From positions 248,001 through 312,000 of the forward strand of contig NZ_AUEC01000005.1 of the NCBI RefSeq assembly GCF_000425785.1: a stretch of DNA of 64,000 bases, written 5' to 3'. Shown here in pieces: positions 41,418-51,921 of the stretch. Position 1 is the stretch's first letter. Each line of letters starts with the position of its first letter. The position numbers were made by a program, and so were the translations under genes. A model generated the notes under the pieces. The model worked only from the letters and a program-made list of their open reading frames with translations. It ran no database searches and was not told the DNA's origin. Source of the DNA: Pseudomonas taiwanensis DSM 21245. GTDB lineage: Bacteria; Pseudomonadota; Gammaproteobacteria; Pseudomonadales; Pseudomonadaceae.

Positions 41418-43597
<2,180 letters not shown>

Positions 43598-44833: not shown

Positions 44834-45313
44834 ATGCTCCTGACACATCGCCCCGCGCAAACCGCCGATATACCCGTCATCTGCTGTTTCCCCCAAGGTC
44901 CGGACGAACTGTTCTACATGTTCCCCAAGGCCAGCTACCCGCTGACACCTGCTCAGTTGAGCGACGCCATCGCCCAGCGCAGTGGCTCGACGGTGGTCGA
45001 GGGCGAGGGCGTGGTTCTGGGCTTCGCCAACTTCTACAAGGCAGAAAGGGGCGGGGTTTGCGCATTGGGCAATGTCGTCGTGGCGCCGGCGGCGCGTGGC
45101 CGAGGGGTGGCGCGCTATCTGGTGCAACGCATGGTCGATCTGGCCCGCGAACAATTCGCGGCGCGGGAGGTGTGGGTGTCGTGCTTCAACCACAACACCG
45201 CGGGCCTGCTGCTTTATCCATCGCTTGGTTTCGCGCCCTTCGCAATCGAAGAACGGCACACCCCGGATGGCAAGCGGGTGGCGCTGGTGCAAATGAAGCA
45301 AGTGATAGGTTGA
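44834..45313 (+). CDS. GNAT-family N-acetyltransferase
   Basis: A 159-residue acetyltransferase. The acetyl-CoA-binding region is NVVVAPAARGRGVARYLVQR (motif A), followed by NHNTAGLLLYPSLGFAPF (motif B). AAGGA lies about 10 bases upstream of the ATG. It is 84 bases after the lipoprotein gene and may be co-transcribed with it. The substrate is unknown. Confidence 0.85.
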   Translation: MLLTHRPAQTADIPVICCFPQGPDELFYMFPKASYPLTPAQLSDAIAQRSGSTVVEGEGVVLGFANFYKAERGGVCALGNVVVAPAARGRGVARYLVQRMVDLAREQFAAREVWVSCFNHNTAGLLLYPSLGFAPFAIEERHTPDGKRVALVQMKQVIG

Positions 45314-46430: not shown

Positions 46431-47198
46431 TCAGGCGCGCACGAACCGCTGGCGCAACAGATCACTCAACGCATCGACCAGCAGCACCAGCACCAGCATG
46501 GCAATGATCACCGTACTGGCCTGCGCTTCCTGGAACAGGCTCAAGGTGGTGTAAAGCATCTGCCCCAATCCCCCCGCGCCGACGAAACCCAGCACGCTGG
46601 CCATGCGGATGTTGTTTTCCCAGCGGTACAAACTGTAGGCCAGCAGCTGAGGCCAGAGGTTGGGCAACGTCCCGAAACAGAACGCAGCCAGCTGGCTACC
46701 ACCTTGCAAACGAATGGCCGCCGCCGGTTCCGGTGACGCATTCTCCAACGCTTCGGCGAACAGACGCCCCAATACCCCGGCGGTATGCAGTGCCAGCGCC
46801 AGGGTACCGGCATTCGGCCCAAGCCCGGCAGCCAGCACCGTCAACGCAGCCCATACCAGTTCAGGTATGGCCCGCAGGGCGTTCAGCAGCAGGCGCGCGG
46901 CAGCCTGTAGCAGCCAGCCGAAACGCCCTGCCGCAGGCAATGCCAGCAGCATCCCCAAGCCCATTGCAAGCAGGGTGCCCATCCCGGACATGGCCAGGGT
47001 TTCCAGGGCACCACGCCCCACTGCGCGCAGGTGCTCGCCAGTCAGGTCAGGCCGCAGGAACCGCCCGGCATACTCACCCATCTGCCCCAGGCCACCGTTG
47101 CCGACCACCGCATGAAGATCCAGCTCAAGGTATGCGAAAGACGCCACCACCGCCGCGATGATGACAGCGACCACCAGCAGGTTGATCACCCGGTTCAT
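46431..47198 (-). CDS. PhnE-like ABC transporter permease 2 (putative selenium oxyanion importer)
   Basis: A 255-residue inner-membrane permease of the PhnE family, with six or so helices and the coupling loop EPAAAIRLQGGSQLAAFCFG. The end of the protein has the typical VGAGGLGQMLYTTLSLFQ. It is the last of four overlapping genes (binding protein, ATPase, permease, permease; 4-7 base overlaps). Substrate assignment follows from the binding protein and from selD next door. Confidence 0.85.
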   Translation of the reverse strand: MNRVINLLVVAVIIAAVVASFAYLELDLHAVVGNGGLGQMGEYAGRFLRPDLTGEHLRAVGRGALETLAMSGMGTLLAMGLGMLLALPAAGRFGWLLQAAARLLLNALRAIPELVWAALTVLAAGLGPNAGTLALALHTAGVLGRLFAEALENASPEPAAAIRLQGGSQLAAFCFGTLPNLWPQLLAYSLYRWENNIRMASVLGFVGAGGLGQMLYTTLSLFQEAQASTVIIAMLVLVLLVDALSDLLRQRFVRA

Positions 47199-48022
47199 GC
47201 CAACCTCCCCCGCAGGAAGCGGCTGAGTTGGTCGGCCAGAAATACCAGCACCAGAAACGCCAGCAGCATGCTTGCCACTTCAGCACCGGCGAACATGCGC
47301 ATCGAGAGGTCTATCTGCTGGCCAAGCCCACCGGCGCCGACGAAGCCCATCACCACCGAAGCGCGCACCGCGCACTCCCAGCGGTATACGGTGTAGGACA
47401 CGACCTCGGCTCCAGCCGTGGGCAGAATGCCGTAGAAGAATGCGGTCAGTCGGCCACTGCCGGCCTGCAGCAACGCATGGGCCGGGCGCTGGTCGACCGA
47501 CTCGAAGATCTCTGCGTAGACCTTGCCGAGCATACCGCTGTAGGTAATGGCGATGGCCAGTACCCCGGCTGTCGGCCCCAGCCCCACGGCGCGCACGAAC
47601 AGCAGCGCCCAGACGATCTCCGGCACACTGCGCAGGAAGATCAGCAGGCCGCGCACGGGCATGCGCAACAACCGCGACCACAGCCCTGCCCTACCGCCCC
47701 TGGAGGCTGCGCGCAACGACAGGGCGCGGCTGGCCATCAGGCTGGCCGGCACCGCCAGCAGCAGCGCCAGGGCCATACCGGCAGTGGCCACGGCCAGGGT
47801 CTGCAACGTCGACTGATACAACAGCGCCAGGAACTCGTGGTCATGGGCTGGCGGCCAGAACGCGCGGGTGAAACTGGCGATCTGCTGCCGGTTCTCTGCC
47901 TGCAGCAACACACCAGGATCGAGCTCGCTCAACTGCAAACCGGGCCACAACAGGGCCACGGCAATCAGGCTCAGCAATAAGCGCGGCAGCAGCGCCGGGT
48001 CGCGGACATCGGATTTCAGCAT
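47195..48022 (-). CDS. PhnE-like ABC transporter permease 1 (putative selenium oxyanion importer)
   Basis: A 275-residue permease, again of the PhnE family, with the C-terminal FVGAGGLGQQIDLSMRMFAG and coupling loop SVDQRPAHALLQAGSGRLTA. The start is ATG 48022 (MLKSDVRDPALLPRL), overlapping the ATPase gene by 7 bases; the 36 codons open upstream are antisense-like noise in the ATPase 3' end. It overlaps permease 2 by 4 bases. Confidence 0.85.
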   Translation of the reverse strand: MLKSDVRDPALLPRLLLSLIAVALLWPGLQLSELDPGVLLQAENRQQIASFTRAFWPPAHDHEFLALLYQSTLQTLAVATAGMALALLLAVPASLMASRALSLRAASRGGRAGLWSRLLRMPVRGLLIFLRSVPEIVWALLFVRAVGLGPTAGVLAIAITYSGMLGKVYAEIFESVDQRPAHALLQAGSGRLTAFFYGILPTAGAEVVSYTVYRWECAVRASVVMGFVGAGGLGQQIDLSMRMFAGAEVASMLLAFLVLVFLADQLSRFLRGRLA

Positions 48023-48810
48023 CGTGGAATCTGTACCGTCAACGTCGGGCTGGTCGTGGGGGGCGACGCCAGTTGCTCGTTGGCATACAGCGCATCCAGG
48101 CGTGCTTCGCTGACCGCCGCCGCGGGGCAATCGAACGCCACCTGGCCATCACGGATGCCTACCACCCGAGGGAAATGCGCCAGAGCCAGGTCCACGGCAT
48201 GCAGGCTCGCCACCAGGGTCACGCCATTGGTCATGGCGTGGCGGTTGAGCAAGGCCAGGCTGTGATCGGCCAACACGGGGTCCATGGCCGACACCGGCTC
48301 GTCGGTCAGCAACAGTTCAGGCTGCTGGTAAAGCGCCCGGGCGATGCCGACCCGCTGCAACTGGCCGCCAGACAACTGCCCGCACTGCACGAACAGTTTA
48401 TCGGCCAGCCCCAGCTCGGCCAGCGCCTGACGCGCCCCCGGCACGTCGCTTGGGTAAAGCAGGTTGAGCAAGCCACGCAGGGTGCCCCACCGTCCGAGTC
48501 GGCCGGCCAGCACCGCCGTTACCACTCGCTGGCGCGGCGGCAAGGGCGGTGCCTGATGCACCAGCCCCACCCTCGTGCGCAAACGCTGACGAGCCCCTGC
48601 GGACAGGCTCCAGGGTTGTTCGCCAAACACCTCCAGGCGGCCGGCACTGGGCTCGATGGCCGTCGCCATCAGGTGCAACAGGCTGGATTTGCCAGCCCCT
48701 GAAGGACCGATGATCGCAACCCGTTCACCCTGCTCGATCCGCAGGTTGACGGCATTCAAGGCACGAACCTGGCCGTGCCGCAGGTCGACGTTGTGAAGAT
48801 GGATAGTCAC
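48016..48810 (-). CDS. PhnC-like ABC transporter ATPase (putative selenium oxyanion importer)
   Basis: A 264-residue ABC ATPase. Walker A is GPSGAGKSS (about residues 35-43), the signature QLSGGQLQRVGIARALYQQP and Walker B LLLTDEPVSAMDP, with the switch His in VASLHAVDLA. The closest well-known relatives are PhnC phosphonate ATPases. It overlaps the binding-protein gene by 4 bases. Confidence 0.87.
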   Translation of the reverse strand: MTIHLHNVDLRHGQVRALNAVNLRIEQGERVAIIGPSGAGKSSLLHLMATAIEPSAGRLEVFGEQPWSLSAGARQRLRTRVGLVHQAPPLPPRQRVVTAVLAGRLGRWGTLRGLLNLLYPSDVPGARQALAELGLADKLFVQCGQLSGGQLQRVGIARALYQQPELLLTDEPVSAMDPVLADHSLALLNRHAMTNGVTLVASLHAVDLALAHFPRVVGIRDGQVAFDCPAAAVSEARLDALYANEQLASPPTTSPTLTVQIPRC

Positions 48811-49661
48811 TTGAGCAGGCCGGCCTCACGTGCCGCTTGCTCGGTGCCTGCATAGTTCTCAGGCTGGGTCTCGATGAAGCGGCTGGCGGCCTGCAGGTCG
48901 AGGATCGCCTTGTGCTCCGGGTTGGCCGGGTCGAGGTCGAGGAAGGCCTTCTTGATCTTTTCCTTCAGCTGCGGATCCATGTTGCCGCGCACGGTCCAGT
49001 TGTAGTCGTAATAGGCCGGGGTAGTGGCAAACACCTTGACCTTGCTGGTGTCGACCTTGCCGGCATCGACCAGCTTCTGCCATACGCTGGCATTGAGCAC
49101 GCCACCATCGACCTTGCCGGCCTGAACCCAGGCAACCGTCGCGTCGTGCGCACCGGAGTAGGCCACGCGGCTGAAGTAGCTCTCCGGCTTGATGTTGTCT
49201 TCCTTGAGCATGAAGTAACGCGGCATCAAGCTACCGGAAGTGGACGAGATCGAACCGAAGGCGAAGGACTTGCCCTTCAGGTCGGCCAGGCTCTTGACGT
49301 CCGGATTGGCAGTGATGAACTTGGAGGTGAATTGCGCGTCCTGTTCACGTTGTACCAATGGCGTAGCTTTGGGGTCCTTCAGGTGCACCTGGACGAAGGT
49401 GAAGCCTCCCAGCCAGGCCAGGTCCAAGCGGTCGGACGCCAGCGATTCGACCACTGCCGGGTAATCGGCCACCGGCACGAACTTCACGTCCATGCCCAGC
49501 TGCTTGGACAGATATTCTCCCAGCGGCTTGAACTTGCGCAGCAGTTCGGTTGGCGCTTCGTCTGGGATGGCACTGACTCGCAGGGTATCGGCAGCCTGGG
49601 CGATGACGGCGCAGCAAGACAGCGCAAGTCCGGCTGCAATGGCCAGAGGGCGTTTGAGCAT
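48807..49661 (-). CDS. Putative selenate/phosphonate-type ABC transporter substrate-binding protein
   Basis: A 284-residue periplasmic protein of the PhnD family with a signal peptide ending at VIAQAADTL. The mature part starts LRVSAIPDEAPTELLRKFKP; family phrases DLAWLGGFTFVQV and SISSTSGSLMPRYFM are visible. A PhnD-like subgroup has been named putative selenate binding protein (as I recall, TIGR04553) because it sits beside selenium genes; here selD-mnmH is divergent, 128 bases away. The start is ATG 49661 with GGAGAA upstream. The ligand is inferred, not shown. Confidence 0.8.
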   Translation of the reverse strand: MLKRPLAIAAGLALSCCAVIAQAADTLRVSAIPDEAPTELLRKFKPLGEYLSKQLGMDVKFVPVADYPAVVESLASDRLDLAWLGGFTFVQVHLKDPKATPLVQREQDAQFTSKFITANPDVKSLADLKGKSFAFGSISSTSGSLMPRYFMLKEDNIKPESYFSRVAYSGAHDATVAWVQAGKVDGGVLNASVWQKLVDAGKVDTSKVKVFATTPAYYDYNWTVRGNMDPQLKEKIKKAFLDLDPANPEHKAILDLQAASRFIETQPENYAGTEQAAREAGLLK

Positions 49662-49789
49662 TGGGGTTCTCCGGTTCAATAGCGGGGAAAGGGCCGGCAT
49701 CCGCGCCGACCGTGGCAAGTATAAGAGTCCATGGCGCAAAGACCAGCTTTGCTACAATCGCGCAACATCATTGAGCGCACGAGGTGCAT

Positions 49790-50824
49790 ATGAGCGAGCC
49801 GATTCGCCTGACCCAATACAGCCACGGTGCCGGCTGTGGCTGCAAGATCTCTCCCAAGGTGCTGGACGTGATCCTCGCCGAAAGCGGTGCACAGGCCCTC
49901 GACCCGAAGCTCTGGGTGGGCAATGCCTCCCGCGACGATGCCGCCGTCTACGCACTGGACGATGAACGTGGCGTGGTCTCGACCACCGACTTCTTCATGC
50001 CCATCGTCGATGACCCGTACGATTTCGGCCGCATCGCCGCCACCAATGCGATCAGCGACATCTACGCCATGGGCGGCGACCCCTTGATGGCCATCGCCAT
50101 TCTTGGCTGGCCGGTCAACGTACTGCCACCGGAAGTGGCTCGCGAGGTGATCCGTGGCGGGCGCGCCGTGTGCGCCGAAGCAGGCATTCCATTGGCAGGT
50201 GGCCACTCCATCGACGCCCCGGAACCGATCTTCGGCCTGGCCGTCACCGGCGTGGTCAGCAAGCATCACCTCAAGCGCAACGACACCGCTACCGTGGGCT
50301 GCCGTCTGTACCTGACCAAACCCTTGGGCATCGGCATCCTCACCACCGCCGAGAAGAAAGCCAAGCTGCGCGAACAGGACCACGGCCTGGCCCGTGACTG
50401 GATGTGCACCCTCAACACCCCCGGCAGCCGCTTTGGCAAGCTTGACGGCGTCAAGGCCATGACCGACGTGACCGGTTTCGGCCTGCTCGGCCATTTGGTG
50501 GAACTGGCCGAAGGCAGTGGCCTGACCGCGCACCTGAACTACACAGCCGTACCGCGTCTACCCAGTGTCGACCACTACCTGGCCGAGGGCTGCATCCCAG
50601 GAGGCACCCTGCGTAACTTCGACAGCTATGGCCACAAGATCGGCGCCTTGAGCGACGAGCAGAAGCACCTGCTGTGCGACCCGCAGACCAGCGGCGGCCT
50701 GTTGGTAGCCGTTACTCCAGAGGGTGAAGCGGAGTTTCTCGACGTAGCTGCAGCGCTTGGCCTGAAGCTCGCGCCGATCGGCGCGCTGGTCGAGCGACAG
50801 AGCCACGCGGTCGAGGTGATCTGA
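49790..50824 (+). CDS. selD: Selenide, water dikinase (selenophosphate synthetase)
   Basis: A 344-residue enzyme that makes selenophosphate from selenide and ATP. The active site is GAGCGCKI, with C16 and C18 followed by K19, so the catalytic residue is Cys, not selenocysteine. Family phrases [35 protein letters not shown] and [10 protein letters not shown] are seen. The start is ATG 49790 with GAGG at 5 bases. It shares TGATG with mnmH, so both should be made together for 2-selenouridine in tRNA. Confidence 0.96.
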
Positions 50825-51921
50825 TGCGCCCCGACTGCACCGATTTTCGCCAGCTGTTCCTCGACGACGCGCCCATGATGGACATGCGCGCGCCCATCGA
50901 GTTTGCCAAGGGGGCCTTCCCGGGCTCCGTCAACCTGCCGCTGATGACCGATCAGGAACGGCAGAAGGTTGGCACCTGCTACAAGCAACAAGGCCAGGCC
51001 GCCGCCATCACCCTGGGCCACCAACTGGTCAGCGGCACTACCAAGCGCGAGCGCCTGCATGCCTGGGCCAGCTTTGCCAAGGCCCACCCCGACGGATACC
51101 TGTACTGCGCCCGCGGCGGCCTACGCTCGCTGATCGTCCAGCAGTGGCTGCGTGACGAGGCCGGCATTGACTACCCACGCATCAAGGGTGGCTACAAAGC
51201 CATGCGCACGTTCCTGCTGGAAACCACCCTGCAGGCGGTGGCGCAATGCGATTTCGTGCTGGTGGGCGGCCTGACCGGCACCGGCAAGACCGATGTCTTG
51301 CACCAGCTGAGCAACGTGCTCGACCTGGAAGGCCATGCCAACCATCGCGGATCCAGTTTCGGCAAGCGTGCCACCGCACAGCCTTCGCAGATCGACTTCG
51401 AGAACCGCCTGGCCATCGACGTACTGAAGAAGCGCGCTCGCGGCATCGACCAGTTCGTGCTCGAGGATGAAGGCCGTATTGTCGGCAGTTGCTCGGTGCC
51501 GCTGGAGTTGTACCAGGGCATGCAGCAATATCCGATGGTGTGGTTGGAGGACAGCTTCGAGAACCGCGTGGAGCGCATCTTGCGCGATTACGTGGTCAAC
51601 CTGAGCGCCGAATTCATCGCACTGCACGGCGAGGATCTTGGTCAACGACTGTTCGCCGAGCGCATGCTGCAAAGCATGAGCAATATCCACAAACGCCTGG
51701 GCGGCGAGCGTTTCCAGCGCTTGTCCGAGATCATGCGCCAGGCGCTGGACGAACAGCAGCGCTGCGGCGCGGTGGACCTGCACCGGGGTTGGATCGAGGG
51801 CTTGCTCAACGAGTACTACGACCCGATGTACGCCTACCAGCGCGAGGCCAAGGCCGAACGCATCGAGTTTGCCGGCGATGCACGCGAGGTGCGTGAGTAC
51901 CTGAAGGCGCGGAAGCGATAA
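50824..51921 (+). CDS. mnmH: tRNA 2-selenouridine synthase MnmH (SelU)
   Basis: A 365-residue enzyme replacing the sulfur of 2-thiouridine-34 in tRNA by selenium, using selenophosphate from SelD. The N-terminal rhodanese domain has the catalytic C95 ([10 protein letters not shown]); a P-loop GGLTGTGKT lies at about 148-156. Its ATG overlaps the selD stop by one base. No selA, selB or selenocysteine tRNA is present in the window, so the visible use of selenophosphate is tRNA modification. Confidence 0.95.

Follow-up and report, generated by a model that had tools for sequence, protein, structure and literature searches.

A phosphonate-type ABC transporter operon facing selD-mnmH in Pseudomonas taiwanensis and its probable role in selenium oxyanion uptake

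The closest described relatives of the transporter reported here are the PhnD1 system of picocyanobacteria, PtxB, and PhnCDE of Escherichia coli. The transporter is encoded in a 64,000-nucleotide (nt) stretch of Pseudomonas taiwanensis DSM 21245 (contig NZ_AUEC01000005.1, positions 248,001 to 312,000; hereafter the window), where four genes for a phosphonate-type ATP-binding cassette (ABC) importer face selD and mnmH, the genes for selenophosphate synthase and tRNA 2-selenouridine synthase. By the profile score of its binding protein, the operon is a member of a family already named in NCBIfam, TIGR04553 (putative selenate substrate-binding protein). We infer that it imports a selenium oxyanion with high affinity, the most likely one being hydrogen selenite (HSeO3-), and give this reading a probability of roughly 0.72. 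According to reviews of 2022 and 2026 (PMC9312934, PMC13188914), a specific transporter that takes up selenium with high affinity has yet to be identified in prokaryotes. When five putative transporters were deleted in a methanogen, none was clearly required (PMC11097638). Selenate was included in the binding screen of the AioX study, where AioX and ArxX reportedly bound arsenite only. YedE (TIGR04112), a proposed selenium transporter, was also predicted by co-occurrence with selD, but it is a ten-helix membrane protein resembling sulfur transporters, whereas the system in the window is an ABC importer (PMC5322559).

PhnD1 is represented by structures from Synechococcus MITS9220 (7S6G) and Prochlorococcus MIT9301 (5LQ5 and 5LQ8). 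It was published as a phosphite-binding protein that probably imports phosphate. Each of the 97 picocyanobacteria in one database has PhnD1, a presence that was called paradoxical: most strains are described as being without phosphite and phosphonate pathways, phosphate depletion of the cells does not induce the system, and several strains are unable to grow on phosphite or methylphosphonate (PMC10284923). The protein prefers phosphite over phosphate and methylphosphonate. Its binding of phosphite is tighter than that of phosphate by a factor of ten or more (dissociation constants (Kd) in the three Synechococcus rows of Table 1 are 0.67-2.8 uM for phosphite and 7.4-88 uM for phosphate), and its affinity for hypophosphite was immeasurable (PMC10284923). 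The 7S6G protein was crystallised with phosphate, sulfate was excluded in the crystal, and a constitutive, medium-affinity phosphate transporter was proposed (PMC10284923). The strings "seleni" and "selena" are absent from the main text of that paper. In the open-access literature, outside which most subscription journals lie, and judging by titles and abstract openings, no paper was found that links PhnD1 to the picocyanobacterial SelD fusion or mnmH.

The binding protein of the window (48807-49661, minus strand; 284 aa, with a signal peptide judged by eye) scored 363.2 bits on TIGR04553 (cut-off 250), and the match covered positions 1-266 of the 266-position model. The preliminary description of the locus had named this family, correctly, and had proposed scoring the protein against the phosphonate-specific PhnD model TIGR03431 as well; the score there was 179.2 bits, under the cut-off of 261.1. 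On the general model for phosphate/phosphite/phosphonate binding proteins, TIGR01098, it was 243.8 bits (cut-off 112.05). Members of TIGR04553 are also expected to be encoded alongside a PhnC-like ATPase and a PhnE-like permease, and both are present in the window. Permease B passes the PhnE model TIGR01097 (246.4 bits; cut-off 216.7). Permease A, scored as a 278-aa start variant, stays below the same cut-off at 202.2 bits, and the ATPase falls short of the PhnC model TIGR02315 (200.2 bits; cut-off 266.1).

The nearest solved structures to both the window protein and the family profile are those of PhnD1. The family profile gave 319.5 bits for 7S6G and 290.2 bits for 5LQ5; PtxB and E. coli PhnD scored 166 and 86 bits, respectively. 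The two PhnD1 sequences pass TIGR04553 themselves (338.3 and 302.7 bits) and fail the PhnD model (123 bits). The AlphaFold2 model of the window protein (mean predicted local distance difference test score, pLDDT, 91.6) matched 7S6G and 5LQ8 with Z scores of 34.3 and 5LQ5 with 34.1; PtxB reached 31.8 and E. coli PhnD 29.0. In a midpoint-rooted tree of 66 rows, 7S6G and 5LQ5 are nested in the TIGR04553 clade, on a side of 55 rows, and are separated from PtxB and most homologues below the cut-off (support 100/99). The tree carries long-branch warnings: the long rows 5LQ5, L059, L060, L173, and L180 are uncertain, and so are the joins flagged as long-branch. Three sub-cut-off rows from two genomes (L060/L172 and L173) fall on the family side. 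The gene behind L172 (G282:C2:2375-3142) is a boundary homologue in which arginine replaces the pocket tryptophan, and its cargo may differ.

PhnD1 and the window protein are about 36-44% identical, and they share their ligand-binding residues. Y44, S124-T125-S126, H156, D203, and Y204 of PhnD1 (7S6G numbering) are all identical in the window protein, where they are Y67, S140-T141-S142, H172, D219, and the cap Y220. F111 of the window protein is phenylalanine as in PhnD1. It stands at the column where PtxB has a tyrosine that binds ligand (PMC5700983). In one further column, next to the pocket tryptophan, PhnD1 has F and the window protein L. In Synechococcus WH7803 (L064), a single protein of 509 aa contains both PhnE stretches, whereas the window has two permease genes. 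PtxB (5O2J, 5JVB) has the fold, the STS-H motif, and the tyrosine cap in common with the window protein, but is on a separate branch of the tree. From the window protein to PtxB, W changes to Y, L to F, the G after STS to S, N to S, and D to Q. At the compared pocket columns, PtxB reads Y, STSS, S, Q and the window protein W, STSG, N, D. A protein near-identical to the P. stutzeri PtxB fragment in 5O2J occurs in the same genus as the window (L175, genome G032) and would be a phosphite binder, judging from its branch and pocket. E. coli PhnCDE belongs to the same superfamily, with the same type of ATPase and permease as the window operon, but the pocket of E. coli PhnD is much larger (PMC5700983).

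All four transporter genes are on the minus strand. The ATPase gene (48016-48810; GTG start; PF00005) overlaps the binding-protein gene by 4 nt, the permease A gene (47195-48022; 275 aa with the start placed at ATG 48022; PF00528) overlaps the ATPase gene by 7 nt, and the permease B gene (46431-47198) overlaps the permease A gene by 4 nt. Because of these overlaps, the four genes very probably form one operon. On the plus strand, selD (49790-50824; 588.6 bits on NF002098 and 447.2 on TIGR00476; GCGCK motif retained) overlaps mnmH (50824-51921; 578.6 bits on NF008751 and 364.9 on TIGR03167) by 1 nt, and both proteins pass equivalog models. The layout given in the preliminary description, four overlapping transporter genes facing selD-mnmH across 128 bases, therefore holds in its coordinates and overlaps. 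Its remark that no phosphonate-degrading genes are nearby agrees with the nine chosen flanking open reading frames (ORFs) between 42.5 and 55.9 kb, the part of the genome searched, none of which matched a phosphonate family in NCBIfam. The divergent intergenic region (49662-49789) contains the -10-like words TATACT on the minus strand (49718-49723) and TACAAT on the plus strand (49753-49758). Comparable words are repeated across an alignment of 11 divergent regions, and they may be promoters. A scan of the region with the sigma-70 consensus gave no promoter site, and a scan of 44-54 kb of the window with Rfam gave no match.

The distribution of TIGR04553 was compared with that of selenium genes in three genome samples. 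The same-genus sample comprises 99 genomes, the own genome included. TIGR04553 was found over cut-off in 58 of them, with a clear score gap (none between 170 and 356 bits), selD in 86, mnmH in exactly the same genomes as selD, and selA in 45. The 58 carriers are all among the 86 genomes with selD, and there is none among the 13 genomes without it (Fisher P = 2.8e-6). PhnD-like homologues below the cut-off served as a control and occur in 43 of the 86 genomes with selD and in 6 of the 13 without (p = 1). The possibility that any PhnD-like protein tracks selD was rejected on this ground; the selenium link is therefore specific to TIGR04553. A tie to selenocysteine was also rejected, as 20 of the 58 carriers are without selA. 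Among genomes with selD, TIGR04553 is commoner where selA is present (38/45 vs 20/41; p = 5e-4).

Conservation of the neighbourhood had been proposed as a further check. The operon is within 10 kb of selD in only 24 of the 58 same-genus carriers, although selD is present somewhere in all 58. The neighbourhood is thus conserved only in part, whereas co-occurrence with selD is complete in this sample. Among the 34 loci away from selD, the 20 that were read show varied gene contexts, and no recurrent neighbour gene emerged from them. All 20 had a recognisable ATPase and/or permease ORF resembling those of the window, although ORF picking missed some genes. In one transporter-carrying genome, the selD match is in two adjacent pieces (G034:C1:4803552-4804467), which may be due to sequencing error or decay.

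The sample of Gammaproteobacteria comprises 274 genomes, again with the own genome included. TIGR04553 is over cut-off in 13 of them, across 11 families. All 13 carry selD, against 62 of 274 overall (p = 1.4e-9; 6e-9 excluding the own genome). A genome with a 239.7-bit homologue, below the cut-off, was left out of the carriers (G282, the genome of L172); it has no selD match and a different pocket letter. In this sample mnmH is present in 45 genomes, including 8 of the 13 carriers. The other five (G224, G252, G307, G345, G364) have selD without a detected mnmH, so the system is not bound to tRNA selenouridine, and a tie of the operon to mnmH was rejected.

Neighbourhoods were taken from four of these five genomes (G307 was left out) and from G316 and G205. 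Family scans were applied to chosen ORFs in L167, L168, and L169 and to one ORF of L171, which is egtD-like; L166 and L170 were compared with the window proteins only. In L167 (G224), L168 (G316), and L169 (G252), SenB (TIGR04348; 413-427 bits, cut-off 300) is encoded close to the operon and to a fusion of an oxidoreductase with SelD. SenA (NF041186, cut-off 420) adjoins senB and the operon in L167 and L169 (511 and 504 bits). In L168 a SenA-like ORF of 411 bits, just below the cut-off, is ~16 kb off, beside a second, free-standing selD. These gene groups span 5064-13456 in L167, 14479-19778 (and 966-2303) in L168, and 4876-14724 in L169, where egtD is also adjacent to senA. It is possible that senA and senB, the SelD fusion, and the TIGR04553 transporter constitute a selenoneine cluster with its own importer.

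In Cyanobacteriia (214 genomes), TIGR04553 is over cut-off in 88 genomes, selD in 117, and mnmH in 120 (119 over cut-off). One genome (G428) was left out of the carriers, as its match of 237 bits spans only positions 82-265 of the model. All 88 carriers have mnmH and 84 have selD, and none of the 92 genomes with neither selD nor mnmH carries TIGR04553. In L161 and L162, the operon is beside mnmH and a SelD fusion. Among the 80 cyanobacterial loci of the PhnD1 scan, many of which end at contig edges, mnmH starts 2.3-4.5 kb beyond the binding-protein gene in six (L128, L129, L130, L136, L138, L140). In these, mostly in records titled Cyanobium, mnmH is downstream of phnD1C1E1 on the opposite strand; in L136 it is the gene immediately after the permease. 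The proteins of L136 and L138 pass MnmH models, and mnmH of L140 is a tblastn match. A SelD-like fusion and ybbB (mnmH) were noted in Prochlorococcus and Synechococcus in 2005 (PMC1273633).

In these samples, TIGR04553 over cut-off is thus confined to genomes with selenium-use genes: selD in 58/58 carriers of the genus and 13/13 of Gammaproteobacteria, and mnmH in 88/88 of Cyanobacteriia. Selenium use is also broader in the own genome than the locus displays. The preliminary description took MnmH as the only visible selenophosphate user, which is correct beside the operon. Genome-wide, contig C24 carries a complete selenocysteine trait, with selA, selB, tRNA-Sec (anticodon tca), and a UGA-containing formate dehydrogenase alpha gene in a cluster; read through the UGA, the last scored 1456.8 bits. 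MnmH is therefore not the sole selenophosphate user of the organism. The proposal that the locus joins uptake to tRNA 2-selenouridine synthesis was too narrow in view of this trait, the mnmH-less carriers, and the three selenoneine neighbourhoods. As a selenium importer, the transporter would be one for selenium supply in general, not for selenouridine alone. The three genome samples support a selenium role, as do the links to three distinct uses of selenium. Elsewhere in the window, another tRNA wobble-base gene, queA (42548-43597), is ~3 kb past the operon and probably unrelated, and a GNAT acetyltransferase (44834-45313) shows a weak match to ArsN1 (arsinothricin acetyltransferase; 35.5 bits, cut-off 170).

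Selenite (SeO3) has the same three-oxygen pyramid as phosphite, with a lone pair in place of the hydrogen. Hydrogen selenite has a pKa of 8.3 and predominates among selenite species up to about that pH. The pKa of selenate is about 1.8, and selenate and sulfate are without a proton at neutral pH. The pocket aspartate (D219) is conserved in the aligned family rows, except for N in L058, L136, and L138. In the PtxB/PhnD1 pocket, three oxygens are held and a tyrosine is pressed on the fourth position, and in the Prochlorococcus phosphite complex the contact of the pocket aspartate suggests a singly protonated ligand (PMC5700983). The protein should therefore favour a singly protonated XO3. Together with the phosphite preference of PhnD1 and the protonation states, this argues, with moderate confidence, for hydrogen selenite rather than selenate as the ligand.

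The mechanism can be proposed as follows. The periplasmic protein would grip three ligand oxygens with Tyr67, Ser140-Thr141-Ser142, His172, and the Asp219 carboxylate, for which a protonated ligand oxygen would be needed, and the Tyr220 cap would close over the bound ligand. The two PhnE-like permeases and the PhnC-like ATPase would then carry HSeO3- into the cell. In the cytoplasm, selenite would be reduced to selenide, and SelD would convert it to selenophosphate. The users of selenophosphate would be MnmH, for selenouridine, and the SelA/SelB-dependent formate dehydrogenase in this genome, and selenoneine synthesis in others.

It is unlikely that the importer takes up selenate (SeO4 2-), the cargo in the curated name of TIGR04553. 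Selenate is fully deprotonated at neutral pH and would be a poor match for the D219-type aspartate. A four-oxygen anion can be accommodated by PhnD1, as phosphate in 7S6G (PMC10284923), but the advantage of phosphite over phosphate would suggest that a fourth oxygen is unwelcome.

Several observations weigh against a selenite importer. The name of TIGR04553 presumably derives from the association with selenium genes itself, and our surveys are then not wholly independent of it. In the open-access literature, no paper testing any TIGR04553 member for selenium was found, nor any selenium binding, uptake, or mutant data. Many genomes with selD are without TIGR04553 (28/86 in the genus, 49/62 in Gammaproteobacteria, and 33/117 in Cyanobacteriia), so that the system is at most one uptake route and other routes exist. 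Four cyanobacterial carriers (G488, G511, G577, G620) have no detected selD, although all have an mnmH match. The Fisher P values disregard shared ancestry, which affects the 11 gammaproteobacterial families least. A selD match was found in 37 of the 48 PhnD1-bearing genomes searched (48 of the 80 loci). The 11 without a match include nine metagenome assemblies or "AG-" records, the latter presumably single-cell genomes; the other two, CS-1328 and GFB01, look like isolates. The SelD fusion of WH7803 passes TIGR04369 ("SelD-related", short name "fusion_not_SelD"; 1024.7 bits, cut-off 700), and it also passes the selD model TIGR00476 (185.4 bits, cut-off 125). The fusion of L161 fails TIGR04369 (500 bits), and in all ten aligned fusions the GCxxK motif still has its Cys and Lys. 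The selenium argument in picocyanobacteria rests mainly on mnmH. Finally, P. putida BIRD-1 ADR58557, comparable to the window protein by its annotation as a phosphonate/selenate binding protein, accounted for 0.309% of the exoproteome when phosphate was present, 0.959% in phosphate-depleted medium, and 0.270% in rhizosphere soil, values given with no statistic in the available text (PMC9426549). Its rise upon phosphate depletion would fit a phosphorus role.

Such a role, import of phosphite or phosphate with a merely historical association with selenium genes, is what the proposal for PhnD1 would imply. PhnD1 is a TIGR04553 member that binds both anions, with the Kd values given above, and was crystallised with phosphate. 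Against this stand the failure of several PhnD1 strains on phosphite or methylphosphonate and the lack of upregulation upon phosphate depletion (PMC10284923). TIGR04553 is absent from all 92 cyanobacterial genomes without selD and mnmH, although all of them need phosphate, and, of the 13 columns read, five separate PtxB from the window protein and four separate it from PhnD1. We regard phosphorus as a quite unlikely cargo. Least likely is a small organic selenium compound (e.g., methylseleninate) or a different oxyanion of a chalcogen, for instance sulfite: sulfite is a pyramidal XO3 like selenite and no result here separates the two, but the identified neighbour genes, among the part scanned, are selenium genes, and in PtxB and PhnD the tyrosine cap is described as sterically blocking R groups of greater bulk (PMC5700983).

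Hydrogen selenite as the probable ligand of the window protein would bear on its picocyanobacterial relatives too. It is somewhat probable that the PhnD1C1E1 system of marine Synechococcus and of Prochlorococcus imports selenite, and that its affinity for phosphite reflects ligand mimicry, with HPO3 taken for SeO3. The question of selenium as cargo is directly testable, because purified PhnD1 proteins and structures exist. If this is true, what is now an unexplained phosphonate-type system of very abundant ocean phototrophs would be their selenium importer, and TIGR04553, from this genus to cyanobacteria, would be a dedicated high-affinity selenium importer of prokaryotes, feeding selenouridine, selenocysteine, and selenoneine.

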